From an uncultured Bacteroidales bacterium (GTDB taxonomy: Bacteria; Bacteroidota; Bacteroidia; Bacteroidales; F082), in contig CAJOIF010000001.1 of the NCBI GenBank assembly GCA_905234765.1, forward strand, positions 207,572 through 271,571: a DNA stretch of 64,000 nucleotides. Direction: 5' to 3'. The notes under the pieces were generated by a model that did not search any database, was not told the DNA's origin, and worked only from the letters and a program-made list of their open reading frames with translations. Made by a program: the position numbers and the translations under genes. Of this stretch, positions 32,902 through 63,160 are shown one piece after another. How positions within the stretch are numbered: position 1 is the first letter of the stretch; each line of letters begins with the position of its first letter.

Positions 32902-32959
32902 ATGTCGTATCTCGTTGGATCGTTCCTTCATAATTGTAGTTGTGTCTTTCGTTGCCTGA

Positions 32960-35900: not shown

Positions 35901-38287
35901 TCAACCTCGGCAGTGCTGGCAAAGGTGTTGTTGCCCACAATGCCCGCTGCAGTGGTTACGGCACTGACATCGGCATAGCTGAAGCAGTTGACCACACGCG
36001 AGTCGTCTTCCAGACCACCCACGATACCACCAGCACAGTTGCCCGTCGTGGTAACGTAGGGATGAGTACCTGCTGGGAAATTTGCGCTATTGGGCAAGAT
36101 GCCACAATTATAGATGCGGCTATAGCCCTTGGCGGTGCCAGCAATAGCACCCACAGCATCAGCAGAACTGCTTATTTCAACGCCATTTAGCATCACGTTC
36201 TTCACCGTGCCATCGTTAACTGTGTTGAAGAGAGGGTTGGAGAGACCTGTAATAGTGTGATAATTACCGTCGAAGATGCCCGTAAACGGCTCGGTGATTT
36301 CCGCAACTGCGGTTACGTCGGCCTCGAGAATATAATGATAGGAAGCTCCGTCTGTGTCATTGGCCATATCCACAAATACCTCAAAGTCGGTTTGATTAGT
36401 AATGTGACGTTTTCCTTCTCCATCAGGTTCAAGTTCGTCATAGATGGTTTTTGTGGCCACATCAGAAGTTTCATACCCAGAGGCCGTGGCAATAGCTTTG
36501 ATGACATCACCTAAGCTAACTTGTATAGGAATCGAGTATACATCACTGGAAGTTGTGGGATCTCCTCCGTTTATTGTATAATAGATAGTGACTCCACTTA
36601 CTGGGAAAGCACAGCTGATAGTAGCATTGTCTCCGTTTTTAGAAATAATGGGCTTTGCGCACTTCAGGGTTACCGAGCCTGAACCGACAGTAGAATTAAT
36701 CAAGCCCTCTTTAACGGCAATGGCCTTAATGGTGACACCAGACACATTCTCTGTCAAAGGGACAGTGTAAAGTGTTGAAGCTGTGGTAGGTGTGGTACCA
36801 TCTGTAGTGTAGTAAATGGTTGCACCTTCAGTAGTACTGGTTATGGAGATGGCGTTCGAGCCATTGTTTTGGATGGTCGGTGTGGCCACTTGATTGAAAG
36901 ACACTGTCTCCACCGGTGAATCGTCATAACCTGTTTTGGTGGCAATGGCCTTGATGGTAACGGTAGATGATACATCAAACGGACCTTCATAGAGTGTTCC
37001 TACAGTGGAGGAAGGCACGGTCACACCATCTGTTGTATAGTGGATATCGGCATCAGCTGGCGTAGCTGTGATGGTGATTTTCCCCGTTGAGCTAGAGTAA
37101 GTGATGCTGTTAATGGCACATGACATGGGATAAACCGTGATCGCAAAAGTCCAGTGAGCGTAATTATCATTCTCATTAATAGAAACTCTACCTTTTATTA
37201 TTCCCAAATTGGCTCCATCGGATACAGTTTTTATGCCTAAACTATTGCTATCCCAAAGATTTCCAATGAGTAATTTGGGAACAATCATGTAACACTCAAC
37301 AGAATTATTATTTACAACTCGTGCAGCTCGAACAACGAAGAACTGATAGCGGTCTTCATTTTCACTTGACTTTACCTTAACTTCAACAGCATTAGTCTGG
37401 TCACCGGTGCTAACGGTACCTCTAAAATACATATATTGGTCTTCAGCCGCAGGATTGATGATATAATAGTATTTTAGTTTCATGGGATTTAATACAGCAT
37501 CATCCTCATACGGTGCTTCTTTAAAATACCATGCCATGTCGTTACTTTCAGTAGTTGCATTGGTTACATACTTTGGAGTGCCGGAACCCGTAGAAACATA
37601 ATATGAATTATTCCTTATATTACGTATCCTGTAGTAAGTCTTAGATTCGCCTGGCGAAAGGGTAAATGGAGGATTCGGCCAACTGAAATTATTATCAAAA
37701 GCAATGAAATCCCATTTTGAGTTTGCATCATTGATATAATGATTGTTATCATCATTAGTCAATCTAATTGGATACTGTGAACTTATACTGCCACTTCGTT
37801 TATTCAAGCCAATCCACTCCGATCCATTTGGTTTGATACAGATATTATAAAATCCCGTTGTTCCGTTCGTGGTATTCTCAACAAGCTTAAACTTGAACTT
37901 ATCAGTTGAACTTGGATCAAAATTTGCAATTTGAATGGTTCGACCTGGTGTGGAATAGTCGGTATTACAAATATACTTTCCCGTACTGTTGTTGACAATG
38001 TAGTAGTATTGTGTGCCATTATCATTCTCCGCTTCCAAAAAATACCACAGCATACTAACGTGAGGAAGATTCGCGGTACTGACATTATTATTCTGAGGTA
38101 CCATGTAGAAACTCTCGACCTGTTTTGTCCGTATCAAATAGAGATGCTTATCATTGAGGTCGGTTGTAGGGATAATCTGTCCCCATCCCACCAAAGGCAT
38201 AAGGAAGAAGAGGGCGAGAATGAGGCGGCTTGGGAGCCTTTTATTTTGTTGGCCTTGGAGGGCCGATGTGTTGTTCAATTGTGGCAT
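32960..38287 (-). CDS. Secreted multidomain surface protein: chitobiase-C-like repeats, GLUG region, terminal GGGN repeats
   Basis: First gene of the giant operon, 1775 aa. The signal peptide ends near residue 37 (LILALFFLMPLVGWGQ). Residues about 40-390 contain two aromatic-rich segments (KHLYLIRTKQVESFYMVP; KTYYRIRNIRNNSYYVSTG) that resemble beta-trefoil/ricin-type folds, as a guess. Three chitobiase/hexosaminidase C-terminal-like repeats follow at about 400-600 (IHYTTDGVTVP, IYYTTDGTTPT, IYYTINGGDPT). A GLUG-like region lies at about 660-830 (FTGIFDGNYHTITGLSNPLF; AGGIVGGLEDDSRVVNC). A long beta-rich stretch follows, with a few GGGN-type cores (EFYGGSTMDQ, NVYGGGDQSAV, NVYGGGNEGEV) at the end, which is TPEP. 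A promoter match lies 60 bp upstream. Such modules are known in Bacteroidota adhesins and glycan-binding surface proteins; the actual ligand is unknown. Confidence 0.85.
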   Translation of the reverse strand: MPQLNNTSALQGQQNKRLPSRLILALFFLMPLVGWGQIIPTTDLNDKHLYLIRTKQVESFYMVPQNNNVSTANLPHVSMLWYFLEAENDNGTQYYYIVNNSTGKYICNTDYSTPGRTIQIANFDPSSTDKFKFKLVENTTNGTTGFYNICIKPNGSEWIGLNKRSGSISSQYPIRLTNDDNNHYINDANSKWDFIAFDNNFSWPNPPFTLSPGESKTYYRIRNIRNNSYYVSTGSGTPKYVTNATTESNDMAWYFKEAPYEDDAVLNPMKLKYYYIINPAAEDQYMYFRGTVSTGDQTNAVEVKVKSSENEDRYQFFVVRAARVVNNNSVECYMIVPKLLIGNLWDSNSLGIKTVSDGANLGIIKGRVSINENDNYAHWTFAITVYPMSCAINSITYSSSTGKITITATPADADIHYTTDGVTVPSSTVGTLYEGPFDVSSTVTIKAIATKTGYDDSPVETVSFNQVATPTIQNNGSNAISITSTTEGATIYYTTDGTTPTTASTLYTVPLTENVSGVTIKAIAVKEGLINSTVGSGSVTLKCAKPIISKNGDNATISCAFPVSGVTIYYTINGGDPTTSSDVYSIPIQVSLGDVIKAIATASGYETSDVATKTIYDELEPDGEGKRHITNQTDFEVFVDMANDTDGASYHYILEADVTAVAEITEPFTGIFDGNYHTITGLSNPLFNTVNDGTVKNVMLNGVEISSSADAVGAIAGTAKGYSRIYNCGILPNSANFPAGTHPYVTTTGNCAGGIVGGLEDDSRVVNCFSYADVSAVTTAAGIVGNNTFASTAEVEDVSGTNKYTHLRTMVVNCIFYGNISASTIYPVYGGQKISNKGANAINNYNFYSVGCTFSPALTGYNCSWPAQLEYLTRYEFHRNLLNSNRELCGWWVGAPSAPSTMATTAVQAVPKDASLMAKWVLDPSIAPYPILKPFGKYSSPVNIDADASWRETANKWEGKKLGTLNVTVNPGNQAPNGISSIVYDGTNNHPAFVITDMDTIHGDYCYRKIQLPYYNTVFGNPDGDTWAAKYGGNYGDYVVIGWKVSTSEGTVGTLTENWQTGYNFADRNCTAKDANRVFAQGGYYYVPNGVNNITITAQWAQAVYFDNTDHSYDRVNMSGSKPGTHFAPAGTRPETLGNGKTVSTANLRDLAKTDDYIGDNIYEYAVVLVGNHQYRHHEGNTSENIGETSSTKGFTVISADFDFDEEPDHCLIWQLGKKYDRQSFCPIRFDFLPVVEIGLAMKEDGSTQYYSLGCYRPLGHFEVTETSLIHFGQFEFSNKDRSLYAPLILNGGIFDQYTKGTNGNAMGNANDKINYIIIGGNVRMPSFTPGAHVNANANKPTRHCAVNVIGGSIDNLYLTGNYNDNVTPNTDNPHCYIDGCRIKHVAAAGKEGINGDVYFKINHSKIWEFYGGSTMDQSSGDNFKTVKGNIDVTIDSSIVVKYCGGPKFGDMVYDEANPANSKTITTRATGTTFTYYYGGGNGGTSYVQYDKTDVTGDYGVSTGTYNWNGTGNNQGHLNNYNPGAYRNGGNNYMADYDMEIVNTSAGTESGEAVCRTYFYAAQFSATNTGPISNTLTGCKVLKNFYGAGNLGGVYGDVISELTDTEVDSLAFGAGFSASIPQVTIYNRDKTPPTIDIHTGIITPQLEGTKTTYTWTNETSLGGTSLSTNSPAVLNPNGDGINYFFTTISLQNLGTVSGNVTLTIKGSSVIGTEGEANTGNVYGGGDQSAVTHNTTVKLQGSAHVLGNVYGGGNEGEVSGNSSVTIEAEPSVTPEP

Positions 38288-46123: not shown

Positions 46124-47176
46124 TTATTCTTGTGGCTTGTTCAATTCAAGTATTTTCTGTGCGCGGGTATAGAGTTCTTGGCGCAAGCTCTGTGGCTCTA
46201 TCACCTCGCAGCGGTTGGCGTAGGTGAGTAGCTGCTGCACCAGCTCCTCGTTGGGAATCACCTCAAGGGCGAACACCATCCAGTCCTTCTCCTCCTCCAC
46301 ACGCTGCTGGCTCCAGTGAATGGGCTTAGTGTCGATATACCACGCATCGGGCTTCCATGCCTTGAACCTTACCGTCACCGGCTTGCCTTCGGGCAACAAG
46401 CTCACACCCACAATGTGCGTGAAATGCTCCCTGATGGCCTCCGCCGCGCCCTCCGGGACCTCATGAACCCCTTGAACCTTTGAACTCTCAACTTTCGAAC
46501 TGACTCTCAACTCTACACTCTCAACTCTCAACTCCTCTATCCGATCTATCGGCACCACCACATACTTCAGCCGCGGCAGCTTCTCAGGCTCACAGCCCAC
46601 CACATACCACCTATTATTATATTGTTTCAATTGGTAGGGCATCACCGTGCGGGTGCGGTTGGGACGGCCAAAGCGGTGATACTTCAGCACCACCACCTGC
46701 TCCGCCACAATGGCATCGAACAGTTGCCCGAACCACTCCAGCCCCTGCAGCCGCTCGCACTGTTCCAGCGCCACAGTGCCCTTGGGCGTGCCGTCGATGG
46801 CAAACTTCTCCTTCAGCGTGGCCAGCAACGGTTCCAGCCAGCCGAATTTGGGAAGCCCTTTGATGCCGCTCAGCGTATCGATGGTCTGACGCAGCTGGCG
46901 GGCCTGCTCCTGCGTGAGGGGCATGTTCATGATGCTGAACGAGGGGTCGCGATACAGCAGCAGCTTCTTGTGGCCATACTGCCGCCGCTCCAGCTCGATG
47001 TTCCAGCCCTCGCTGCTCTCCATGAAGGCGATGTCGTCGAGCACGGTGTTCTTGCCCACGCGGTAGCGCAGACGCTCCTCAATCTCGTCCATCAGTTCGT
47101 CAATCGTGTGGCCCCCGCTGCGGAACATCAAGTCCAGCACCAGGTAGCGTCTCATTGCATTCTTGTTAGCAGGCAT
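46124..47176 (-). CDS. WYL-domain transcriptional regulator
   Basis: 350 aa from ATG 47176; the upstream in-frame start at 47212 would be coded by intergenic repeat sequence. An N-terminal winged-helix region (RRYLVLDLMFRSGG, then TIDELMDEIEERL) is followed by the WYL core (YNNRWYVVGCEPEKLPRLKY) and a C-terminal WCX-like part (ALEVIPNEELVQQLLTYANR). WYL proteins often sense nucleotides and control defence operons (for example BrxR and CapW). Between WYL and WCX there is an odd segment, RVESVELRVSSKVESSKVQG, that is coded by a degenerate tandem repeat of the type seen between genes. It may be a loop insertion. All neighbours run in the same direction and a terminator follows. Confidence 0.87.
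   Translation of the reverse strand: MPANKNAMRRYLVLDLMFRSGGHTIDELMDEIEERLRYRVGKNTVLDDIAFMESSEGWNIELERRQYGHKKLLLYRDPSFSIMNMPLTQEQARQLRQTIDTLSGIKGLPKFGWLEPLLATLKEKFAIDGTPKGTVALEQCERLQGLEWFGQLFDAIVAEQVVVLKYHRFGRPNRTRTVMPYQLKQYNNRWYVVGCEPEKLPRLKYVVVPIDRIEELRVESVELRVSSKVESSKVQGVHEVPEGAAEAIREHFTHIVGVSLLPEGKPVTVRFKAWKPDAWYIDTKPIHWSQQRVEEEKDWMVFALEVIPNEELVQQLLTYANRCEVIEPQSLRQELYTRAQKILELNKPQE
46466..46540 (-). repeat. Intergenic-type degenerate repeat inside the WYL gene
   Basis: Runs of CTCAACT/CTTTCGAACT-like units (for example CAACTCTCAACTCCTC), as found between genes in this window (41637-41666). It stays in frame for about 25 codons. Confidence 0.6.
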
Positions 47177-47213
47177 TTTTCTAATTGATAATTGATAGTT
47201 GATAATTGACAAT
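47177..47213. repeat. Degenerate AATTGATAATTGATAGTTGA spacer repeat
   Basis: Short imperfect tandem units fill the space between the WYL and four-helix-bundle genes. Comparable spacers occur at 47562-47600 (TCAATTGTCAA units) and 48951-48992 (TTAAGCA units). Confidence 0.6.
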
Positions 47214-47561
47214 TTATTTTTCTTTCAAAGTCTTAATTATTGCGGTCAACATTTTTATAAGTTCAACGCAATCATCATTCAAGGAATTGAACATCTTATC
47301 ATCCAGATAATCAGTAGCATGAAGCAAATCAAGCCAATATTCGGTTTCGTCTGCTTCTTTTAGGGCTATGTTTAGTTTATTGAGGAAATCCATCCTCGAC
47401 TGAGCGTTTTTGCTTTCACGTGTATTGGCACCAATACTCGTACCACATCGCAGCAACTGCTTCGAAATCACAAATTCTTTCTTGTCTTCAGTCAAGTATT
47501 TGTAGCAGTTTATAATTCTTATTGCGAAATCGCGACTTTTATCTTTGATTGCGTTAGCCAT
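47214..47561 (-). CDS. Four helix bundle protein (23S rRNA intervening-sequence type)
   Basis: 115 aa from ATG 47561. It carries the family's features: DFAIRIINCYKYL near the N-terminus, then QLLRCGTSIGANTRESKNAQ (conserved SIGAN motif), SRMDFLNKLNIALKEADETE and YWLDLL. The family was first found in intervening sequences of 23S rRNA but is common as a free-standing gene in Bacteroidota, often near mobile or defence genes; it forms a pentameric four-helix bundle of uncertain function. Here it is not within an rRNA gene. Degenerate AT-rich spacers flank it on both sides. Confidence 0.9.
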   Translation of the reverse strand: MANAIKDKSRDFAIRIINCYKYLTEDKKEFVISKQLLRCGTSIGANTRESKNAQSRMDFLNKLNIALKEADETEYWLDLLHATDYLDDKMFNSLNDDCVELIKMLTAIIKTLKEK

Positions 47562-47598
47562 AATTATCAATTTTCAATTGTCAATTGTCAATCCTCAA

Positions 47599-49777: not shown

Positions 49778-50173
49778 TCATTTCTCCATTAACTCATCGG
49801 GCACAAGTGGTTTATAGACACCGTCTTTGCTTTCCATCAATACAGAACCACTCTCTAAGCATTCTAACGAATGCCAGCGGGCTTTCTCCACATTGATACA
49901 GCGTACTTCGCCATTGGCATCCAACACTATGCTTTCAGTTTCATTCCCTGCGTCATCATAGAAATGCCAGCAGATCTTGCCGCGAAGCAAAACCACAGTT
50001 TCGCTTGATGCCAAATGCCGGTGAATAGGCATTATGGTGCCAGTCTCCAAGGCATTCAGCATACGCTGGGAATTATCCTCTAGAGTATTGCGCAAATCGT
50101 AAGCCTGGCGCAAGCGGGGCGAAGCCTTGGCTTGGGCTGATAAATCGTCTAATAGTTTCTTATCGATGATCAT
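49778..50173 (-). CDS. WbuC family cupin, copy 1
   Basis: 131 aa from ATG 50173; earlier codons come from a GAAACCT-type spacer repeat. A typical WbuC order: helical N-terminus (KLLDDLSAQAKASPRLRQAY, DLRN), then the cupin with metal ligands IMPIHRHLASSETVVLLRGK and a C-terminal RWHSLECLESGSVLMESKDG. WbuC proteins occur in O-antigen and capsule clusters and are predicted metal-binding cupins; the substrate is not known. It is clearly homologous to the gene at 59128-59538, including the tail after the stop codon. It is out of place among defence genes, which suggests rearrangement. Confidence 0.87.
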   Translation of the reverse strand: MIIDKKLLDDLSAQAKASPRLRQAYDLRNTLEDNSQRMLNALETGTIMPIHRHLASSETVVLLRGKICWHFYDDAGNETESIVLDANGEVRCINVEKARWHSLECLESGSVLMESKDGVYKPLVPDELMEK

Positions 50174-50251
50174 GAAACCTGAAACTTGAAACCTGAAACT
50201 ACTAAGCAACTCTAAACCCTAAACTCTAAACTTTAAAGTGCAAGACGGCTT
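50174..50251. repeat. Degenerate GAAACCT and CTCTAAAC spacer repeats
   Basis: Two different short-unit tracts: GAAACCTGAAACTTGAAACC (50175-50194) and CTCTAAACCCTAAACTCT (50212-50229). They separate the cupin from the WYL fragment. Confidence 0.55.
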
Positions 50252-50536
50252 TCACCGTAAACTTACGAAGAGGCTGAAGTTGGGGTCGCGATAGCGGTAA
50301 TACACACGGTGGCCGTCGTAGAGCTTTTCAATCTCTATGTCCTGCCCGCCGATGGCCTCGCTTTCGAGGCGCACCAGGTCGGCCCGCAGGGTGCGCTCGC
50401 TCACATCCTCCTCGCCGTGGTTGCGCAAAGCCTCGTTCACCGCATCCAGCAGGTCGTAGAAGAAATACTTCCTCTGCCTGTTGCGCAGGCAAGCGTCCAA
50501 CGCCTTATACCTTATATGTGCATTACTATGATTCAC
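50252..50536 (-). pseudogene. N-terminal fragment of a WYL regulator
   Basis: 94 aa corresponding only to the winged-helix part of a WYL regulator (YKALDACLRNRQRKYFFYDL; RTLRADLVRLESEAIGGQDI; YRYRDPNFSLFVSLR). The full-length WYL protein in this window has the equivalent stretch LLYRDPSFSIMNMPL and then about 250 more residues. No continuation is visible in any frame before the spacer repeats. Probably a truncated remnant, although a stand-alone DNA-binding protein remains possible. It lies 34 bp downstream of the AAA-TOPRIM gene. Confidence 0.75.
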
Positions 50537-50570: not shown

Positions 50571-52271
50571 TCACGGCATCGTCAATGTCTGTTCCAACAA
50601 ATCGAGCAACACCTTGAAATCTTCCATATCTGCGGCTTGTGCCACTTGGCTGAAATTGGGTAACAAAATTTTCTTCAAGTCATCCCTAACAGCAGGAAAA
50701 CCCTTATAATTTTTGCCTTGGTATTCAGAATCAATATAATTCTTGGTCAGATCCCTGATTTTATCCGCCTTGAAATAGTCTTCAATGATAAAAGGTGTAT
50801 TGCCATTTGCTCCAGGTTTTATGGGAAGCATAACGACCAAGCCATTCTGTATAGTTGGAATTGTCCTTGCAGAAGAATAATCCGTTGTTTTTAGACTATG
50901 ATTACCCAACAAGATATTGGCACATGTCAATCCAGAGCCATCTCTATCAACCAAACGTATAATCTTCCTTCCCTGCAATGTTGTTATTTTTGACATGAAA
51001 GCCAAATCAGCATTACCATCGGTACCACTCAGTTCGATAAACTCTGTTTGACCTGCCAATGTTGGATAGTTCGTGCTGAAAAATGAAATAGCCTTCTGAA
51101 TATAGGCAATATCGGTCTTCCCCTCTGTCAAAATCAAATGCTTGTTAGTGAAAAGCATATTGATCAAGGTCACGTCCGAAGCCAGTTTCTTACCAGCCTC
51201 AATCTGATCGCCTACTGATTCAGGTTTGCCGTTGTTCATCAGCACGATGGACTGTGCCTCAACATCCCCGCACACCGAAGGGGAATGTGATGTGATAAAT
51301 ATATGGCGGTTTTGGCGGAACTGCTTGATAGAGTCGATAATCACTTTCTTGTTATCGACATGCACATGGGCGTCAGGCTCGTCAAGCAAAAACAACGTAT
51401 TCTCATTGCCAGCCAACTCAAGTGCAGCCCTTATTAGCAGACGTTTTTTCAAGCCTTCACTCATCATTTCAATGTTCAGCCCGCCATTAAACGTCACCTC
51501 AATATGCTCTATTATTTTGCTGTTTTTAGGCGAATATGCTATATACAGGTATTCAAACAGTTGTTGGGCATCGATGTTTAAACTGGCAAGTATCTGTTTG
51601 AAATCTTGGAGACTGTAATCCTGTCGGCCATCAATGTTTTTTACAAACTGAAGCACCGGGCTCACAGCAAAAGAGCTGTATTGCTGAGGGTCTTTGAATG
51701 TGAACCTGATATTGTCAACCTGGGCAACCTTCAGGTCGCTTCGCAGAAAATCAATCACATCGGCACTGTCGGAGCAAAGTAATGAAAGCAGAGCCAAATC
51801 CCAATAATACTTGTTCAAATAGAGTAGCCTGGGGAAAACTCCGCTCACATTGACCGCGCCTGTCTGATTCTGATTAATTGTGTTTATGAAATTGAAATAA
51901 AACGGCATATAGAAGTTCTGCCACAATCTGTTCGATTCTCCACTGTAAATGGCTATCACCCGTTTAGGATAGTCCATCGTGTTGGTCACACTTTTCAGTT
52001 GGCCGTCATGCTTCTCGGTTAAGTGGCCATTGTTGAACCACACCTCGTTGCGATGGCCGTCAACCTCCCACTCTATCTCAAAGTTTTTGTCGAACAGCAC
52101 ACTCCCACTCAGCAGGTTGCTGAACACGCCGCTGATAAACTCCAGCACATTGCTCTTGCCGCTGCCGTTGTTGCCTATGAACAACGTCAAACCGTCATGC
52201 TGGCTGAAATCGAAAGTCTGGTTTTTTATATTCTTGAAGTCCTCAACCTTCAGTCGGTTTACCCGTATCAT
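50571..52271 (-). CDS. OLD-like AAA ATPase fused to a TOPRIM nuclease domain
   Basis: 566 aa. Walker A GNNGSGKS at 33-40, ABC signature MSEGLKKRLLI at 270-280, Walker B LFLLDEPD at 293-300 and the SHS switch at about 328-330 form the ATPase half. The C-terminal half begins with TNKHLILTEGKTDIAYIQKA (TOPRIM Glu in EGKTD, 383-387) and has DRD at 442-444. This is the layout of OLD-family nucleases and of Gabija GajA; fused PARIS AriA-AriB proteins are also similar, and the EGKTD form might fit DUF4435. No GajB-type helicase is nearby. Its start overlaps the HsdS stop by 4 bp (ATGA), so it is the last full gene of the methylase operon. Likely anti-phage role, inferred from family and position. 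Confidence 0.85.
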   Translation of the reverse strand: MIRVNRLKVEDFKNIKNQTFDFSQHDGLTLFIGNNGSGKSNVLEFISGVFSNLLSGSVLFDKNFEIEWEVDGHRNEVWFNNGHLTEKHDGQLKSVTNTMDYPKRVIAIYSGESNRLWQNFYMPFYFNFINTINQNQTGAVNVSGVFPRLLYLNKYYWDLALLSLLCSDSADVIDFLRSDLKVAQVDNIRFTFKDPQQYSSFAVSPVLQFVKNIDGRQDYSLQDFKQILASLNIDAQQLFEYLYIAYSPKNSKIIEHIEVTFNGGLNIEMMSEGLKKRLLIRAALELAGNENTLFLLDEPDAHVHVDNKKVIIDSIKQFRQNRHIFITSHSPSVCGDVEAQSIVLMNNGKPESVGDQIEAGKKLASDVTLINMLFTNKHLILTEGKTDIAYIQKAISFFSTNYPTLAGQTEFIELSGTDGNADLAFMSKITTLQGRKIIRLVDRDGSGLTCANILLGNHSLKTTDYSSARTIPTIQNGLVVMLPIKPGANGNTPFIIEDYFKADKIRDLTKNYIDSEYQGKNYKGFPAVRDDLKKILLPNFSQVAQAADMEDFKVLLDLLEQTLTMP

Positions 52272-53632
52272 GATTTTTCAAAAATTTGTGATTCAAATTC
52301 TTTTAACGCTTTTGTACGCTCTGTGGCAATGAATTGGTTGGCATCCCACAGTTTACGTTGGTTTTCTTTGAAGTATTTGCCCAGCTGTCTTTTCATTTGC
52401 ATGGGCGGGGCGGGCACACGCACTTCAAGGAAATCGGAAGGATTCACCCTTGGCAATCCTGTACCTGTGATGTGTTGCTTGATTTGGGCTTGCACCAAGT
52501 CGGACGAAAGTACATATTCGAAATAATCCTTTTGTTCATCCTCTTTGATGGAAAAAACCATGAATTCCGTAGAACACACAATATTGTACAAATCCTTGCT
52601 TTCGTTCCTCCAATACTTGTTCAGGTTTGGCCTCAACCGTCCGAAAAGGAAGAATCCCAATGGTATTCTCAATGCCGAACTCTTGATCTCGCCTCCCTGT
52701 TTCAGTTTGTCGCAAGTCAGTTTGCCTATGCCTTTCTCAATATTCTCCATACCCACATACAGAAACTCCTTGTCGGGCGTAAGTTTGGGAACCATGCGCA
52801 GAGAATTTCCCTCACCATCCCACATGAACGAATCAACGAAATCGCCTATTTTCCGCATCGGATAATCGGAAGAAACAATCATTGCATTCACGGTACTTTC
52901 AACGCTCCAGTTTTTAGTGTTACTGAAAGACACCGCTCTCAATCCTTGACCTCCCTCAGCCTTTTTTATACGCACCCCGGTCGTTTCATTCAGTTTCTCC
53001 TGCATTCGCTTTGGGAGGGTTTCCAACTCATGCTCTCTCTTCTCTATTTTCCTATTGGAATCGTGATAAGTCTTCAGCATCTGTTTCTGCTCATCCAATG
53101 AAGGCAACGGAATTCGAATTGCTCGGAATGTGGCCACATCCAAACGTTTACGGTTGGTGCTGCCACGCACAATACTCTTAATGTAGTCCGTAACGCTCTC
53201 GGATGACATTACCAACTGCAGGTATTCAGGCAATACCAACTTTTTATCAACATCAAACACCGGAAACTCAGCAGTGACGATAGCACCGTCCAAATGCTGT
53301 GGTATAATGCCGACAGCCCCGTTGCGGGCATCAATCTTCGAAAAGATAAATTGACCAGCCTTCACTTTGGTCTGCCTTCTGGTCTTCAACTCCCTGCCAC
53401 TTACCTTCTCCTCGCTGCGAGCCTCCACACCTCCCCCGTTGGTTTTCACCTTCAACTGGACATAGTTTTCCTCATTGTTGATGACAATATGCTGGTCTCT
53501 CAAATCCACCAAACTACCCACCGGCACCATTTCGTACCGGCTTTTGTAAGGGATTTTTTTCTGCGAAAGAACCATCGATATGCTCCACGCATGAAGAAGG
53601 TCTTTGAATCGGATGCTGCTCAGTCTGCTCAT
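52268..53632 (-). CDS. hsdS: Type I restriction-modification specificity subunit HsdS
   Basis: 454 aa with the usual two half-repeats. The first target-recognition region ends in LDVATFRAIRIPLPSLDEQK and a coiled coil (YHDSNRKIEKREHELETLPK); the second contains IPLGFFLFGRLRPNLNKYWR and ends in LPRVNPSDFLEVRVPAPPMQ plus a second helical spacer. HsdS chooses the DNA sequence methylated by the HsdM partner. It starts 3 bp after the HsdM stop and overlaps the AAA-TOPRIM gene by 4 bp. No second hsdS or recombinase gene for specificity switching is present. Confidence 0.93.
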   Translation of the reverse strand: MSRLSSIRFKDLLHAWSISMVLSQKKIPYKSRYEMVPVGSLVDLRDQHIVINNEENYVQLKVKTNGGGVEARSEEKVSGRELKTRRQTKVKAGQFIFSKIDARNGAVGIIPQHLDGAIVTAEFPVFDVDKKLVLPEYLQLVMSSESVTDYIKSIVRGSTNRKRLDVATFRAIRIPLPSLDEQKQMLKTYHDSNRKIEKREHELETLPKRMQEKLNETTGVRIKKAEGGQGLRAVSFSNTKNWSVESTVNAMIVSSDYPMRKIGDFVDSFMWDGEGNSLRMVPKLTPDKEFLYVGMENIEKGIGKLTCDKLKQGGEIKSSALRIPLGFFLFGRLRPNLNKYWRNESKDLYNIVCSTEFMVFSIKEDEQKDYFEYVLSSDLVQAQIKQHITGTGLPRVNPSDFLEVRVPAPPMQMKRQLGKYFKENQRKLWDANQFIATERTKALKEFESQIFEKS

Positions 53633-53635
53633 CGC

Positions 53636-55147
53636 TTACCAGAGTTGGTGTTGTTTCTTATATTCGTCAATATCAGCCAGCAAGCCAACAAGCTCGTTTT
53701 CGCACTCGCCGCCAATGGAGTTGATTCCAGCCTTGTCCACTTTGGCCATCAGTACTTCATAGTCAAAAGCCGATTTCAGCTGTTCGTTGGCCTCATCCTT
53801 GATTTGAGCCTTCAGCTTTCTCATTTTCGCCCTGAGTTTCTTTTTGTTGTCTGCGTCGGCTTTCTTTATCTTAGCCTGCAAGGTGTCAAGCTCCGATTGA
53901 TGCCTTTGTTCGGCGCTTTCTTGTGCCGCAACCTGTGCCTGACGGTATTGATCGGCCTCTTCCAAAGTAAATTTCTTCAGGAAAAGAATACTCGGCTTCA
54001 CGTTGGCACCAGCGGCCATAAACACATCGGTGGGCAATGAAACCACCAAAACAATTTTGGCCCGCCCTTCCACATAATGGCGCACCGACTCCAGTTTCTT
54101 GTTATTAAGCACACCTTCGGGCAACACCACACCCATTCGACCTCCCGGCACAAGCAAATCAAGACAACGATCAAGGAAGAGGGTCTCGGTAAGGTTAGTG
54201 TATTTGCTAATCTTGAACAAATCAAGCAATGGGGTGTCGATATGCTTGTCTATCTGTTCTAACGCCTTATTATACCGCTCGCCATACAATTTCTGGTATT
54301 CCTTTATTTTGGCCGCATCCGTAAATCGGTCACTTTCGGTTATCAGCAGTTTTTTGCTCACCTTGCTACCAAACGGGGGATTGGTCATAATCACATTGAA
54401 ACGCTCCTCAAAAATGCCGTTTACATTCAAAAAGCCGTCGTGATGGTGTACACCGCTATGGCCATCGCCGTGCATCATCATATTCATTTTGGCAGTTCGC
54501 GCCATTCGCGGATTGGCATCCACACCATAGATGCATTTCGATGCCAGTTTTCTTATTCTAGCCTCTTTGTTGTTGGCCGACCCATGGATGATTTCGTCCC
54601 TTACATGTTCAAAAGCCTTGATCAGAAACCCACCCGAACCACAGCAGGGATCGCAAATCAGCTCATTCTCACGTGGGTCGAGCACCCCCACCATGAAGTT
54701 CACAACACTGCGGGGAGTGAAGAATTGTCCCAACTCGCCCCTGAATGTTCTGCCCAAGAAACGTTCAAAGGCAATGCCTCTCACATCATCGGAAGCTGAA
54801 GCCAAATTCAACCCCGACATGGCAGAAAGGATGTCGCGGAAACTGCTTTCGCGAATGTTCAGCTTCTCATTGCGGTCAAATATCTTGTCGGTCTCAAAAT
54901 GCTTGCGGGTTTCATAGAAAAGCACTTGGTAATAGCCCGGTGTGGGTGCATCGGCATTTTCCTCATCAAACTTTTCGAGGGTATATATTTCACCCGTTTT
55001 ATTCTCCTTCCACATCTTGACAAACAACACCTTGCTGATTTCATCGAAAGCAGCCTCAGGCGACAACTTGTCGTTGTTTCTGATGATATTGTGGCACTTC
55101 GTCAGAACACGAGTGAATTCTTCTCTTTCAAACTGGTTATCTATCAT
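53636..55147 (-). CDS. hsdM: Type I restriction-modification methyltransferase subunit HsdM
   Basis: 503 aa from ATG 55147, which overlaps the preceding stop by 4 bp; a start 15 bp earlier is less likely. An N-terminal helical domain (FTRVLTKCHNIIRNND) is followed by RGELGQFFTPRSVV, the SAM-binding motif DPCCGSGGFL at about 166-175 and the catalytic NPPF at about 256-259, which mark an N6-adenine methylase. A long charged coiled coil near the C-terminus (LDTLQAKIKKADADNKKKLR) is longer than in most HsdM proteins. With HsdS it forms a DNA methylase. No HsdR gene occurs in the operon or window, so restriction must come from elsewhere or from the unusual operon partners. Confidence 0.94.
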   Translation of the reverse strand: MIDNQFEREEFTRVLTKCHNIIRNNDKLSPEAAFDEISKVLFVKMWKENKTGEIYTLEKFDEENADAPTPGYYQVLFYETRKHFETDKIFDRNEKLNIRESSFRDILSAMSGLNLASASDDVRGIAFERFLGRTFRGELGQFFTPRSVVNFMVGVLDPRENELICDPCCGSGGFLIKAFEHVRDEIIHGSANNKEARIRKLASKCIYGVDANPRMARTAKMNMMMHGDGHSGVHHHDGFLNVNGIFEERFNVIMTNPPFGSKVSKKLLITESDRFTDAAKIKEYQKLYGERYNKALEQIDKHIDTPLLDLFKISKYTNLTETLFLDRCLDLLVPGGRMGVVLPEGVLNNKKLESVRHYVEGRAKIVLVVSLPTDVFMAAGANVKPSILFLKKFTLEEADQYRQAQVAAQESAEQRHQSELDTLQAKIKKADADNKKKLRAKMRKLKAQIKDEANEQLKSAFDYEVLMAKVDKAGINSIGGECENELVGLLADIDEYKKQHQLW

Positions 55148-56940
55148 CGTTGGTTCCCCCAAATTTTTTCTGTTAGTCCGCCTATCACCTTGTCCCTCTC
55201 TTGGATAAACTGCAACATACTATAATCCTTGCTGTCTTCACCCATCTCAGACAGATAGCCGTCAGCCATCAATTTCTGTAATTTTTGCTCGTTGTCAAGC
55301 AATTCCAAGGCATCCACATCACGTCTCCGCACCAAACAATAGTTGGCCACCGAATTGAGGTAGGCCACCACTGCGGGATTCTCTTCCTGGTCAAGATCTT
55401 CGTCGGTGAAAATCCTGTATAGCACATACGACGACTGCTTGCGCGAGCGCAGCAAGTCCTTGAAATCGCCCTTTCCGTTCGACAGCCAATAAAGCAGTCG
55501 GGCAAAGAAATATTGGAAATAGCCCCAGTTGTTCATCGGCTGCAAGCGTTCAAAGAACTTCTCATTGCCACCAAGCATACGTTCCACCTCAGTGTCGAAA
55601 TACTGCTGCAAATCGCCCGAACCCATATTGCGGATGGCTTTCACCGTTTCGTATATCAAGTTGCGGATGGTGCTTTGGGTAATGCTCTTGTGCGTAAGGG
55701 TGCGTATATTGGTGAATTGGTCGATATATTTGGCCACGATGCCTATCTTTCTGTCAGTCTCAACCTCATCGTCAGTTTTGGTGACAGCTGACATATAGAG
55801 CGGATAGGTCAACGAATCGGCTATAGTGTAGAAATTGTTTACGTAGAGCAATTCAAACGGGGCATTCGCCACCATTTTGTATTTGAACAGGCGAAGATAC
55901 AGACTGGAATAGAAATCGAAGTCCGATTTGATAAAATAGTAGTAGTCATCGGCACGGCGCAGATTCAGCCTGTTGGTGTTGTTTTTCACCCATACATGGA
56001 ATTGCGTACTTATTTTCTCAAAGTCCTCGTTTTCGGCTCCTATCTTCGCCTTGCGCTGTGTTTCGGCATAACGACCGCGCAGCCAAGCCCTGAAGAACTC
56101 CATATCGGCAATGTCAGACCCCACAGTGATTTTGATTTCCTGAATACGGCTGTTCCAAAAATCGTTGGCTTTCTGTGCCTTCTCGTCATTTTCAGCATGA
56201 TTCTCCACAATTTTCGACAGCAGATAGCCTTTCAATATCTCGGTTGGCACCAAGCTCAGCCCTCGGTCGTTCATAGTTTCAAAAATGGTGTAGGCACTGT
56301 CCATGCTGTTAGCCCTCACCTCCACCAGTGTCACCTTCTCCATCATCCATTCGATGAAGATGGGTAAAACTTCGGGGGTTTGCAGTTCAACGGGGAATAG
56401 GTAGTTGATGTTCTCGTAGCAAGAAATGATATTCTGCACTGACTCGCCTACCTCGTCGAACTGCTGAAAAGAGCTCACTCCTTGTGGATTGTCCATCAGA
56501 AAGTCCATCACCTCATTACGCGACTCCACATTTACCGTGTAGGTGGTTTCGCCCTGCTTCTGCACAAAGATATAATTGGTCAGGTTCTTTTGCAAACGCT
56601 CCGACACTTGACACTCGCGCTGCTTGTGATGCAGATAGATGAGCAACAACGTGAACGAGGTGAGGCGTTGCTGACCGTCAACAATCGAAAGATCGCCATA
56701 CTCATCTTCGCACAAGACCACCGGCCCCATGTAGTAGTTGTCGTATGAGTTGTAGTCCTTGATAGTATCACCGTTTTGGTAGCTTTTTTGGAAACAGCCC
56801 GTCACATCACTGATCAATGCCTCAATCTGTGGCCTCTTCCACCGGTATTCACGCTGAAACACATCAATCCTGTACCTCTTGTTGAATAGCATGTCGGCCA
56901 GGCTTTTGTCCTTTGCTTCTATTTTGTTAAACCGTTTCAT
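55144..56940 (-). CDS. DUF262 protein (GmrS/ParB-like fold)
   Basis: 598 aa. The DUF262 signature is clear: YRIDVFQREYRWKRPQIEAL at about 23-42 and SIVDGQQRLTSFTLLLIYLH at about 85-104, followed by IFETMNDRGLSLVPTEILKG. DUF262 forms the ParB-like GTP/NTP-dependent part of GmrSD type IV enzymes and of BrxU and SspE, which usually have a DUF1524 HNH nuclease domain at the end. I see no HNH motif in the C-terminal 250 residues, so this copy may depend on another nuclease. Start and stop each overlap a neighbour by 4 bp, so it is made together with the HEPN-motif protein and HsdM. A role in sensing modified or unmodified DNA is inferred. Confidence 0.88.
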   Translation of the reverse strand: MKRFNKIEAKDKSLADMLFNKRYRIDVFQREYRWKRPQIEALISDVTGCFQKSYQNGDTIKDYNSYDNYYMGPVVLCEDEYGDLSIVDGQQRLTSFTLLLIYLHHKQRECQVSERLQKNLTNYIFVQKQGETTYTVNVESRNEVMDFLMDNPQGVSSFQQFDEVGESVQNIISCYENINYLFPVELQTPEVLPIFIEWMMEKVTLVEVRANSMDSAYTIFETMNDRGLSLVPTEILKGYLLSKIVENHAENDEKAQKANDFWNSRIQEIKITVGSDIADMEFFRAWLRGRYAETQRKAKIGAENEDFEKISTQFHVWVKNNTNRLNLRRADDYYYFIKSDFDFYSSLYLRLFKYKMVANAPFELLYVNNFYTIADSLTYPLYMSAVTKTDDEVETDRKIGIVAKYIDQFTNIRTLTHKSITQSTIRNLIYETVKAIRNMGSGDLQQYFDTEVERMLGGNEKFFERLQPMNNWGYFQYFFARLLYWLSNGKGDFKDLLRSRKQSSYVLYRIFTDEDLDQEENPAVVAYLNSVANYCLVRRRDVDALELLDNEQKLQKLMADGYLSEMGEDSKDYSMLQFIQERDKVIGGLTEKIWGNQR

Positions 56941-57782
56941 TTCAATTCTTTTATTAAGGTTCTCAAAATACCGTAGGCATATTCATAAATATGGCTGTTG
57001 GCCACCGTGGGATCCACTTCGCCGTGAAACAGTATGCAACGCAATCCATAAACTATTTCAACCACCGCCTTCGCTAAATCCTCCACGTTGTTCTTCAAAT
57101 ACAATTTGTGCGCCTTGTCAATCTCGATGGCTCCCGCCGGAACTGTTTCTTTCCCGTTCTTGTTTTTCACCGTTGCCAAAAGACTAACTTTTTTATTGGG
57201 GCTTACCTCGTTGAGGCATCTTCTCAGTTCGTCCTTCCATTCGTCTCGTTCTACATTCACAAAATCGGCATTGGCCTCCAACTCGGCGGCCTGACAATTG
57301 TTCAATTCAATCAAGGCAACAGAATTGCCGTTTGAAGACTTCAGCACTTCCAAACGACAACGGAGCGTGGTGCGCGGTTGGTTGGGGTTGAACTGCGCAC
57401 GAAACAGGTAATGCCCTTTGGTCACTTGATAGGTGTAGGAAGTGTTGCTCATGATGCTCACATTGGCAAGCGATAGTTTCTCATGCTCGTTAGGCACGGG
57501 GTGTGAGCGCAGTTCCATCTCCAGCTTGCCCAACAACTGCTTGAACTCCATTGATACTGCATCCTTGCCCCGCAGCAGGCTCTTAATGCGACGGGTGAAG
57601 GTGTTGTCGTTGGCCTTGATGTGGTTGATGATGGCACGGTCGGTCATCATGCCTGTGGTTTCGTCATAGAAGTTCGTCATATACCAGGCGTTGAAAGGAA
57701 TCCACGCCTTGATGAACATCAGGTAGAAATCAGGCTCCGCCCTGTCAATCCAATTACCTATATGTGAAATGGTTCCATACAT
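56937..57782 (-). CDS. HEPN-motif protein of the methylase operon
   Basis: 281 aa, soluble. The C-terminal part contains R248-CILF-H253 in YGLRCILFHGEVDPT, an Rx4H arrangement typical of HEPN ribonucleases and Apea-like HEPN proteins, in a helical context (EDLAKAVVEIVYGLR; YEYAYGILRTLIKEL). The N-terminal half is less clear (FYLMFIKAWIPFNAWYMTNF) but is also largely helical. It overlaps the DUF262 gene by 4 bp and follows the PIN gene after 31 bp. HEPN proteins commonly act as RNA-cutting effectors in defence and toxin-antitoxin systems; that function is inferred from the motif alone. Confidence 0.72.
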   Translation of the reverse strand: MYGTISHIGNWIDRAEPDFYLMFIKAWIPFNAWYMTNFYDETTGMMTDRAIINHIKANDNTFTRRIKSLLRGKDAVSMEFKQLLGKLEMELRSHPVPNEHEKLSLANVSIMSNTSYTYQVTKGHYLFRAQFNPNQPRTTLRCRLEVLKSSNGNSVALIELNNCQAAELEANADFVNVERDEWKDELRRCLNEVSPNKKVSLLATVKNKNGKETVPAGAIEIDKAHKLYLKNNVEDLAKAVVEIVYGLRCILFHGEVDPTVANSHIYEYAYGILRTLIKELK

Positions 57783-57813
57783 CGTGTCTGATTTGATTAC
57801 AATTGTTTATCTC

Positions 57814-59031
57814 TTATTTCGGATTATCCTCACCTTTAGTATTACCATTGGATGGATTATCAAATTCATAACCCGTGACAAATGTTTTTCCTTCGGGAAT
57901 CTCGCCATATAAACTAAATCCATTGCCCATAGCCAAACCATCGCTTGGATCCAACGGGTTGGTTCTAAACACACTCCTAAGTGAACGGCCATCATAAGAA
58001 CCTCTCAAAAAACCGCCGTTTCTCAGCCTATAGGGGTCGTAACCCATGGGGTTATCCCCCACACTTCCCAACACAGAGTTGGGCTGAAGCGATGCATAGC
58101 CCATTGAATCATTACCCATTCCAAACATGGTCATAAACTGACCATAGTCAAAGGAACTTGTCTCCTCGGCCTCACGGATGGAAGAGTCTGATACCTGAGC
58201 ACCATCGAGTTCTTTCGCCATCTCCATAAACTGATGAGGCTTGTACATCAAGAAGCCATGACCACCCGTCTCCTTATCGAATTCCTTTATCAACTCCACA
58301 CGCGGGCCAATTGTCTTACCCGATACCTTATACCACCAATCCTCTTTTCGGTCGTCGGTAACTATAACCAAGTCCTTGTTGTTTGCTTTGGCATAGTCAA
58401 TAGCCTGCTTCCACCAAACCAAATCGCCAAATGCATGACGCTTGCTTTTCTTCTCCTTTTCTTTCCAATCCGCATACCCAGGGGGTATATTCTCTTGGTA
58501 TCGTTTCTCACCCGTCTTGTAGATGTTATCCAAATCATACGCCTCATAGTCATCGCCCACTTTGCCATCATAAAGAGCCAGTATCTCTTCCAACAAAGCA
58601 TCATTATCATTCCCTTCAAATTCGGTTTTCCATTTCCTTATTTTTGCTGCTGTGCGATTTTTGAAGTTTTTGATATCCTTTCTGATTTGGTCTATGTTCA
58701 GAGCAGTGTCAGGTCTGAATTCTTTTAACTTCAGTTCCTTTTCGAGTATATCATCCATTTTTGAAACGTTAGTCAAAAGACCGTCAAAACCTTTTCTTAT
58801 ACTTTCAATAACGCTTATGCGGTTATTGAAAAACTCCATAGCCACCTGATAGGGCAACCAAAGATTGTCTTTGTGGGTTTTGAGGATTGCGAGCAGTTCA
58901 TCGCTACTCTGTTTTGAATAACGGCACATATTGAGAAGCGCGTTTGCATCAAGCACAAACACGCCTTCGTTCCATATACGTTTCCTTTCATCGTCAGATA
59001 AAGGAATATACTCTTTCAGCTTAGTCCTCAT
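57814..59031 (-). CDS. PIN-like nuclease-domain protein (PIN_8 type)
   Basis: 405 aa. PIN-type acidic residues appear in order: D28 in VFVLDANALLNM, E66 in YQVAMEFF, D203 in FGDLVWWKQAIDYA and D226/D227 in LVIVTDDRKEDWW. A charged helical insert lies at about 85-140. This fits the PIN_8 (DUF4935-like) family seen in defence loci. The last 110 residues are unusual: low-complexity, Gly/Asn/Ser/Asp-rich (GMGNDSMGYASLQPN; DPYRLRNGGFLRGSYDG) and probably disordered. First gene of the operon with HEPN, DUF262, HsdM, HsdS and AAA-TOPRIM. No convincing promoter motif seen upstream. Likely metal-dependent RNA or DNA nuclease. Confidence 0.83.
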   Translation of the reverse strand: MRTKLKEYIPLSDDERKRIWNEGVFVLDANALLNMCRYSKQSSDELLAILKTHKDNLWLPYQVAMEFFNNRISVIESIRKGFDGLLTNVSKMDDILEKELKLKEFRPDTALNIDQIRKDIKNFKNRTAAKIRKWKTEFEGNDNDALLEEILALYDGKVGDDYEAYDLDNIYKTGEKRYQENIPPGYADWKEKEKKSKRHAFGDLVWWKQAIDYAKANNKDLVIVTDDRKEDWWYKVSGKTIGPRVELIKEFDKETGGHGFLMYKPHQFMEMAKELDGAQVSDSSIREAEETSSFDYGQFMTMFGMGNDSMGYASLQPNSVLGSVGDNPMGYDPYRLRNGGFLRGSYDGRSLRSVFRTNPLDPSDGLAMGNGFSLYGEIPEGKTFVTGYEFDNPSNGNTKGEDNPK

Positions 59032-59127: not shown

Positions 59128-59538
59128 TTACAACTTCAATATATCAGCATCTGTTAGCGGTTCCCATGGTCCATCCTTGCTTTCCAGCAAAACGGTATTC
59201 GGCTCCAAGCACCTCAACGAGTGCCACTGCCCGGCAGGAACATTTACAGCAACCACTTCGCCATTGGGCGACAGCTCGATCGAATCCGTACAAATCCTTT
59301 CCAGTTCGTCATAAAACTCAATCACAAACCGACCTCTGAGGCAAGCAATGGTCTCGGAGGTCTTTTGATGCCGATGGATGGGCATCACTGTGCCAGGCTC
59401 AATCGCGTTGAGCATACGCTGGCTCTTATCCTCAGCCGAGTTGCGCAAATCATAGTTCATCCTGAGCCGTGGCGATACCTTGGCTTGCTCTGAAATAGTA
59501 TCTAATAGTGCTTGCGTTATTATAATATTCGTGTTCAT
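59128..59538 (-). CDS. WbuC family cupin, copy 2
   Basis: 136 aa (MNTNIIITQALLDTISEQAK). It has the same layout as copy 1: VSPRLRMNYDLRN, VMPIHRHQKTSETIACLRGR with the metal-binding histidines, and GQWHSLRCLEPNTVLLESKD. Predicted metal-binding cupin of the O-antigen/capsule type; substrate unknown. It follows a decayed nucleotidyltransferase and a PglE-like gene, a setting more typical for glycan modification than that of copy 1. The matching sequence after both stop codons shows that the two copies share ancestry beyond the coding region. Confidence 0.88.
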   Translation of the reverse strand: MNTNIIITQALLDTISEQAKVSPRLRMNYDLRNSAEDKSQRMLNAIEPGTVMPIHRHQKTSETIACLRGRFVIEFYDELERICTDSIELSPNGEVVAVNVPAGQWHSLRCLEPNTVLLESKDGPWEPLTDADILKL

Positions 59539-61924: not shown

Positions 61925-63160
61925 TTACTTTATTCCCAACGGGTCTTTAGTAATGTCAATTAAAAGGTTCTTTGCCTTATAATGACGTGGTTGAAAAAGT
62001 CTCCCCACATGGGCTTCTAACAGACGCGAATCGAACCCCGAAATGGTTTGCCGCTTCGGTGCTGGTACTGCCACCTTACCTTCTTTCTGGAACACCGCCA
62101 TCACATTCTCAAAATTATCTTGCAGATTCTCTTTCTTGGGATTATTAAATATGTTTTGCGAGCCTGGATTGTTACAAAAATTGACGTAAATTCGGTTCTC
62201 ATAATCCTTGTAACTTTTCTCGTCAATGCCAATGGCTGCCATTAATTCGCGTTTGCGCTTTCTTTTTAAAGTGTGCTTCTGTATCTCCGCCAATTGCTCT
62301 ATTCCCTTTTCATAGGTGAAATACAATATCCTAACAGTATTATCAACCTTTATTCGCTTTCCTATTTCATTCCACCAGCTCTGGTCGGTCATCCCAAGTG
62401 ATACGCCATAAATTGAAATAATACCGCTTTGAGCAATTACTTCACGGCATTGACGGTCTATCATGGTTCCAAGATTGCTGTTGGTTTGTGGCTTGACAAG
62501 CAGGTCAAGCACACTTTCCTCTGCGGCCAGTTTCTTGTTGGCTATTTGATCCACATTGTCAACGCCAAGAACAATATTCCGGTTTTTTATGTCTTGATGG
62601 ATATGTAGACATCCGTCAAAATGAAAAGTCATGGCACGATCTAAACCCAACACACCACCGACACCTATTTTTTCCATATCAGCAATACGGTTGAACGTAT
62701 CGGTGTAATTGAAACTCAATATTCTTACGCGATTGTCGTTTACCCGAACAAACAGTTTGTTAAAATCCTCTATTTCACTCGGTGTCAGATGCAGCCAAGG
62801 TTTCATCAGGTCTTGATATAATGTCTTGGTAGGATTGTCAAAATTTTCCACATCTGAAAAACGATAGGCATAATCAATATACTCCATCAAATGATTATAC
62901 ACGTCCATGTAAACTGTATTGTAATCCTCTGCTGAATCGTATTCTTCAGTCACCTTGCCTAAAGCAATTTCCATGTCCGACCATAATTCCGTACGATGCT
63001 CCAAGAGGGCATTATACAAATTGATACGAAACTTGTTTACAATCTCTGGTTCATCATCATTTGGAACTAGCTGCAGATAATATTCATAAAAATGGGCATA
63101 CGAAGTAGGAATGCCCTGGTTGATATCGAAACCATTCCCTATTATATGTGTTATATTCAT
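61925..63160 (-). CDS. AbiH family abortive-infection protein
   Basis: 411 aa. The family signature is at the N-terminus: MNITHIIGNGFDINQGIPTS followed by YAHFYEYY. RVRILSFNYTDTFNRI and MTFHFDGCLHIHQD in the middle and IISIYGVSLGMTDQSWW after it are also typical of AbiH. AbiH proteins stop phage growth at the cost of the host cell; the mechanism is not well known. It lies between an AAA_13 ATPase and the PglE-like gene, all in one direction, and belongs to the defence island. The basic stretch LKRKRKREL at about 315-325 is notable but of unknown use. Confidence 0.9.
   Translation of the reverse strand: MNITHIIGNGFDINQGIPTSYAHFYEYYLQLVPNDDEPEIVNKFRINLYNALLEHRTELWSDMEIALGKVTEEYDSAEDYNTVYMDVYNHLMEYIDYAYRFSDVENFDNPTKTLYQDLMKPWLHLTPSEIEDFNKLFVRVNDNRVRILSFNYTDTFNRIADMEKIGVGGVLGLDRAMTFHFDGCLHIHQDIKNRNIVLGVDNVDQIANKKLAAEESVLDLLVKPQTNSNLGTMIDRQCREVIAQSGIISIYGVSLGMTDQSWWNEIGKRIKVDNTVRILYFTYEKGIEQLAEIQKHTLKRKRKRELMAAIGIDEKSYKDYENRIYVNFCNNPGSQNIFNNPKKENLQDNFENVMAVFQKEGKVAVPAPKRQTISGFDSRLLEAHVGRLFQPRHYKAKNLLIDITKDPLGIK

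Follow-up and report, generated by a model that had tools for sequence, protein, structure and literature searches.

Accessory DUF262 proteins and HEPN ribonucleases have been described on restriction-modification (RM) systems. The DUF262 protein RloF is located between hsdS and hsdR (PMC4619093), a HEPN family occurs in operons with ParB nuclease and DNA methylase genes, and PrrC is kept in check by a type I system until inhibition of that system sets it free (PMC3710099). Backup effectors of the HEPN, PIN, and TOPRIM types are reported for BREX loci (PMC12839542). PD-T4-2 is listed with both DUF262 and HEPN (PMC10952713), and its deletion in the native strain led to more plaquing by T4 (PMC9519451). 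The parts, and the idea of an RM system with a HEPN protein, are already known. Here, we analyzed a stretch of 64,000 nucleotides (referred to as the window) from an uncultured Bacteroidales bacterium (contig CAJOIF010000001.1, positions 207,572 to 271,571). On its minus strand, a HEPN-DUF262 gene pair lies upstream of genes for a DNA methylase (M), a specificity subunit (S), and an AAA-TOPRIM protein. On balance, this operon is probably a mosaic phage-defense cassette, the M of which has lost its built-in nuclease.

The pairing of HEPN and DUF262 is the same as in PD-T4-2 at the domain level only, and in the window the pair is additionally joined to M-S-AAA. The locus differs from RloF and from PrrC/RloC in that the RM systems there keep their nuclease, and PrrC is a fusion of an ABC ATPase with HEPN. 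A literature search returned no paper on this gene combination, which is not proof of absence, since most subscription papers lay outside the search; nor did the same search turn up a stable HEPN partner combined with the conserved loss of a fused nuclease.

Organization of the operon

Six open reading frames (ORFs) are arranged head to tail between positions 59031 and 50571:

57814..59031, minus strand: PIN_8 (PIN-like) nuclease, 405 aa (Pfam PIN_8, 1.5e-54); an upstream neighbor, membership not supported
56937..57782, minus strand: HEPN-type protein, 281 aa, with R248-x4-H253; putative RNase effector (motif, alignment)
55144..56940, minus strand: DUF262 (GmrSD_N) protein, 598 aa, DGQQR motif intact, no recognizable HNH, fold of SspE/DndI/BrxU (GmrSD_N, 1.4e-30)
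53636..55147, minus strand: N6-adenine methylase M, 503 aa from the ATG (N6_Mtase, 7.8e-43), without N-terminal HSDR_N_2
52268..53632, minus strand: HsdS-type specificity subunit S, 454 aa (Methylase_S, 5.1e-19, two stretches)
50571..52271, minus strand: OLD-like AAA ATPase with TOPRIM-like E and DxD motifs, 566 aa (Pfam AAA_15/AAA_21)
50252..50536, minus strand: truncated relative of WYL-type regulators, 94 aa, directly downstream of the cassette (likeness by eye)

The PIN and HEPN genes are separated by 31 bp and M and S by 3 bp, while HEPN and DUF262, as well as S and AAA, overlap by 4 bp. DUF262 and M also overlap by 4 bp, provided that M begins at the ATG at 55147. The 508-aa ORF of M opens at an upstream TTG (55162), and the ATG gives 503 aa; the ATG is most likely the true start because 19 of the 22 full-length close homologues have 503 to 505 aa. 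The preliminary description of this DNA, made from the sequence alone, had given the coupling of the six genes as gaps of 3 to 31 bp or 4-bp overlaps, and this is the spacing found. It was also right that the window holds no hsdR and that the DUF262 protein lacks an evident HNH domain (see below). Promoter- and terminator-like signals in the region were as numerous as in shuffled sequences.

Loss of the nuclease domain from the methylase

The nine nearest relatives of M in genome loci are 739 to 866 aa long, with main segments 52 to 56% identical. Both close relatives that were scanned carry HSDR_N_2 at the N terminus, and an alignment of 31 proteins from both M groups, judged by eye, shows the D..ExK residues of this domain in all but one (30 of 31; the exception is L086). 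The M of the window begins just behind the place that HSDR_N_2 occupies in the relatives. Among the best 120 of 7998 scored homologues, the 24 nearest lack PF13588 (HSDR_N_2) and comprise 22 full-length proteins (503 to 513 aa, 73 to 99% identical), a 352-aa fragment, and a 536-aa chimera-like protein; the other 96 are 747 to 783 aa long, are 52 to 54% identical, and all contain PF13588. This division indicates that the nuclease-less M is a conserved clade and not damage in a single genome. A search for M in 393 genomes gave 21 matches at E ≤ 1e-50; the open frames holding them were at least 667 aa long, so that none was of the short kind, and no relatives were found in viral contigs.

As in type I systems (HsdRMS), an HsdS with target-recognition domains (Methylase_S) is present, whereas a separate HsdR with helicase and nuclease was not found in the 64 kb. 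Six restriction-nuclease queries used in tblastn searches confined to the window retrieved neither hsdR nor a detached HSDR_N_2 domain; the best chance matches had E values of 0.36 or worse, and a control piece in the same search recovered M at 9e-179. A nuclease domain detached from M but placed elsewhere in the window was therefore rejected. The preliminary description had named the locus an HsdR-less type I system. In close relatives, however, the nuclease is fused to M, so that the absence of hsdR is normal for this M family, and a type I system that lost hsdR was discarded as an explanation. What the window's clade is missing is the fused domain.

Type IIB-like enzymes, in which a fused RM protein works with S (BcgI/BsaXI-like), have M and S without hsdR in common with the locus, and the 10 PDB structures matched by M include RM.BsaXI. 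BcgI carries nuclease and methylase on one chain, as the M relatives do. The N-terminal nuclease is present on M in these relatives and absent from the M of the window and its clade.

MADS (methylation-associated defense system) is an eight-gene system, three members of which, MAD2, MAD5, and MAD3, are resembled by M, S, and AAA, respectively, with HEPN-DUF262 being extra in the window. Membership was rejected since the scores against the NCBIfam models lie far under the curated cut-offs (247 bits against 720 for MAD2, 31 against 420 for MAD3, and 45 against 400 for MAD5). The M relatives also align with the N-terminal part of MAD2, whereas for the M of the window the alignment does not begin until about position 173 of MAD2.

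Co-inheritance of HEPN and the nuclease-less methylase

Co-occurrence was assessed by exact matches in the length of the longest contig between protein clusters, for which one contig is reported per cluster. The HEPN clade (23 proteins, 72 to 99% identical) has seven such exact matches with the M clade, five of them with a full-length M. No shared longest contig was obtained in seven control comparisons: HEPN proteins outside the clade with the M clade, the HEPN clade with the other M proteins, the two outside groups with each other, and, in four further comparisons, PIN with every one of these HEPN and M lists. The PIN, HEPN, and M clusters of the window itself (271571, 37335, and 9900) do not match each other by longest contig. 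This test therefore misses much, which makes its zeros weak, those of PIN included, and its exact matches strong. For the window and the seven shared contigs (eight pairs, two near-identical), the HEPN and M distances correlate with a Mantel r of 0.948, a value reached by 4 of 40,320 permutations. HEPN and the nuclease-less M have remained associated down to about 73 to 74% identity, and their co-occurrence and co-divergence in other lineages go beyond chance.

The methylase, specificity subunit, and ATPase as a module

An AAA gene follows M, or M and S, in all seven readable loci of close M relatives (S and AAA in six, AAA alone in one); the other two of the nine nearest loci end at contig borders. 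The 11 more distant M loci have no such AAA, and none of the 20 M loci has a HEPN gene within six genes. In L078 (13769-16206) and L080 (13831-16307), the M-S-AAA operon is followed by a protein of 129 to 130 aa and then by a DUF262 protein, which in L078, the one scanned, carries an intact GmrSD_C.

In the AAA protein, the Walker A, LDEPD, and H-loop columns are invariant across eight aligned sequences. Its PADLOC matches are PtuA, mad3, AriA, and GajA, those to GajA and AriAB reaching residues 396 to 447. The TOPRIM-like E and DxD motifs were read by eye, and no TOPRIM profile matched.

The HEPN-DUF262 pair

The preliminary description of an Rx4H HEPN-motif protein stands as far as the motif goes: R248-x4-H253, which fits the Rx4-6H motif of the HEPN superfamily, is invariant in 28 of 28 aligned sequences. 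No Pfam HEPN model matched the protein, and its 28 homologues gave weak, unrelated profile matches only. The structure model is confident (pLDDT 91.6) and helical with a beta insert. Fold searches returned no significant match; as matches to the beta insert took up the VIA list, the lack of HEPN structures there is uninformative.

The DUF262 protein contains the DGQQR motif within GmrSD_N and shares the SspE/DndI/BrxU fold along its chain, the C-terminal part having the C-terminal fold of SspE. GmrSD_C, the DUF1524 HNH half, gave no Pfam match, and no histidine is invariant in 22 aligned sequences. The HNH half is apparently degenerate. The DGQQR motif and this fold are shared with SspE, DndI, BrxU, and GmrSD, from which the locus differs in the apparently degenerate HNH half and in having a methylase as the neighbor instead of phosphorothioation genes.

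Relatives of HEPN were collected from 43 loci (41 genome contigs and 2 viral contigs). A DUF262 gene directly follows HEPN in 22 of them, in L039 behind a HEPN fragment. In 19 others, HEPN stands beside S or M-S without that DUF262 gene; among these, L016 has HEPN before a fused M-S protein, the contig of L029 holds only a piece of S, and the HEPN of L043 is a fragment. The remaining two (L024 and L040) are cut on one side by a contig end. No adjacent RM gene was recognized by similarity to the M and S of the window in 16 of the 22 HEPN-DUF262 loci, most neighbors of which were not domain-scanned. The other six are joined to RM systems of three types. In L001, L002, L004, and L005 the partner is a fused RM protein with S; L013 has a true type I system, made up of HsdM, HsdS, HsdR, and an ATPase, and L027 a type ISP enzyme.

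In a tree of 39 HEPN rows, the 17 with M-S only form one group (98/97). The seven rows with both DUF262 and RM genes require five gains or losses, of which well-supported branches force four; a number as low came out of 31 in 500 shuffles. From this scatter, HEPN-DUF262 seems to have been joined to RM systems several times over, as a module. Searches for HEPN in 173, 399, and 250 genomes of three families found matches in 2, 1, and 2 genomes, respectively, all of them distant and mostly in loci already counted.

Several arrangements around this pair were also observed. In two genomes, two related genes lie 3 to 6 bp behind HEPN-DUF262 (L001:12646-14545 and L005:12646-14503). In L001, the one scanned, their similarities are GNAT-like and weakly ASCH-like, below the cut-off; they are possible further members of the module. 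The true type I operon of L013 has an 822-aa ATPase (6985-9453) between hsdS and HEPN, whose NACHT-like and HSDR_N_2 similarities all fail to reach the Pfam cut-offs. A conjugative Klebsiella plasmid (L106:3562-11516) carries M, S, a HEPN relative, and, after a gap of about 0.5 kb, two DUF262 genes.

Proposed mechanism and alternative explanations

From the architecture, the loss of the domain, and the co-inheritance of HEPN with the nuclease-less M, we infer the following biochemical steps. M-S is most likely a methyltransferase that, as in its family, would mark host DNA at a bipartite site. The DUF262 protein keeps the NTPase/sensor half of SspE, DndI, and BrxU and may respond to DNA that is modified, or modified wrongly, or to the condition of M-S. 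Given the seemingly dead HNH half and the intact HEPN motif beside it, the HEPN RNase is the likely effector, killing by RNA cleavage once released by DUF262 sensing or by a phage that disables M-S; the latter release would follow the guard logic of PrrC. AAA-TOPRIM may have been kept from the ancestral module as a DNA-directed partner. M itself would do the cutting, in cis, in the RM relatives, whereas in the window the lethal response would come in trans. We put forward only tentatively, as the less probable side of the argument, that this is an RM system restricting by suicide, where the nuclease of the methylase was replaced in trans by HEPN under an SspE-type sensor with a dead nuclease, and where the state of methylation or the intactness of the methylase would be converted into RNA cleavage in place of DNA cleavage.

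Several observations weigh against the mosaic cassette and its proposed mode of action. The RNase activity of HEPN is deduced from its motif, with neither a profile nor a fold match. All six RM-joined HEPN-DUF262 loci of other genomes keep the RM nuclease, so that its loss is not a general consequence of joining this pair. Two of the seven contigs shared by HEPN and M involve the fragment and the chimera-like M, and for 17 of the 24 entries in the M clade no longest contig is shared with HEPN, with one contig reported per cluster. The co-divergence of HEPN and M could also reflect the descent of both genes with the host. Finally, the window is the only place where the order of the five genes was read, and DUF262, S, and AAA would be present in other members of the clade by extrapolation.

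Two independent systems on one transcript, namely an autonomous PD-T4-2-like HEPN-DUF262 and an M-S-AAA in which AAA-TOPRIM cleaves DNA, are a rather unlikely explanation, for which it speaks that each module occurs without the other elsewhere and that the OLD-like AAA is constant in close M relatives. Against this independence, the nuclease is missing, among the best 120 M homologues, only in the HEPN-linked clade; HEPN and M diverged in step, and the genes of DUF262 and M overlap by 4 bp. The preliminary description had named homologous loci with independent genes as evidence against a composite system: the modules are indeed separable, but HEPN and the nuclease-less M co-diverge.

Alternatively, M-S could be a solitary methylase with an epigenetic or anti-restriction role, and its neighbors passengers of a defense island, as might be thought of an M without nuclease, in a window without hsdR and with other defense-type genes around it (AbiH and an AAA_13 gene). 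The persistent co-inheritance with HEPN and the retention of AAA-TOPRIM, coupled by a 4-bp overlap, make this improbable.

A single system of all six genes, in which PIN would be a third effector, is very improbable. In its favor are the position of PIN, 31 bp upstream and in the same orientation, and a terminator-like stem in the gap before PIN; such stems occur no more often in the region than in shuffled sequences. By tblastn (E 1e-4), however, PIN was not found in the 43 HEPN loci, and the stretches examined around three PIN relatives (33 to 37% identical, from 295 genomes), two of them short contigs, contained no homologue of the other five genes. For 55 of the 120 listed PIN homologues, a comparison of longest contigs also gave no match with HEPN or M, a weak test in which the window's own clusters fail too. 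PIN was rejected as a core member on the first two results, and on the third only weakly. No PIN relatives were found in viral contigs. The composite defense locus of the preliminary description therefore survives in being methylation-linked, in holding several putative nucleases, and in the joint inheritance of HEPN and M; its single six-gene unit gives way to separable HEPN-DUF262 and M-S-AAA modules, with PIN in neither. That an hsdR elsewhere in the genome serves M-S, as the restriction of the search to the window would allow, is highly improbable, since close relatives, with the nuclease fused to M, need none.

The locus is a natural experiment: a restriction enzyme without its cutting domain, in a locus persisting to about 73% identity with the same new partner wherever visible (seven contigs). 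It makes testable whether toxin modules use RM complexes as their sensors or guarded hubs, and also what brings DUF262 proteins so often into RM operons, with the HEPN-DUF262 pair on several RM types as ready comparisons.

Genomic context

The DcuC protein encoded in the window is 91% identical to its counterpart in a genome taken from the order to which a Paludibacteraceae MAG belongs, and the host is probably one of the Bacteroidales. No plasmid DNA matched the sequence of the window, and no Rfam family matched between positions 45000 and 64000. The cassette sits in a surface-polysaccharide region with a sugar transferase and two DegT aminotransferases, and is bracketed by genes of WbuC-family cupins (49778-50209 and 59128-59538) that are identical at 73 of 131 residues and have 3' flanks similar by eye. 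The 94-aa protein downstream of the cassette, for which no Pfam family exceeded the cut-off, resembles by eye the N terminus of a WYL protein at 46124-47212.

Further genes lie on either side. An AbiH-family abortive-infection gene is found at 61925-63160 (Pfam, 2.8e-37), and a 23S rRNA intervening-sequence-type protein is encoded at 47214-47570 (Pfam, 3.9e-29). The 455-aa AAA_13 protein at 47599-48966 matches mainly the end of the profile and is apparently shortened; AAA_13 is the Pfam family of RloC/PrrC-type ATPases. Giant proteins are encoded on the minus strand at 2-20482, 20527-29694, 29725-32994, and 32960-38287, the first as an open frame of 6827 aa that runs to the window edge, and at least the last three contain VYGGG-type repeats, as read by eye.

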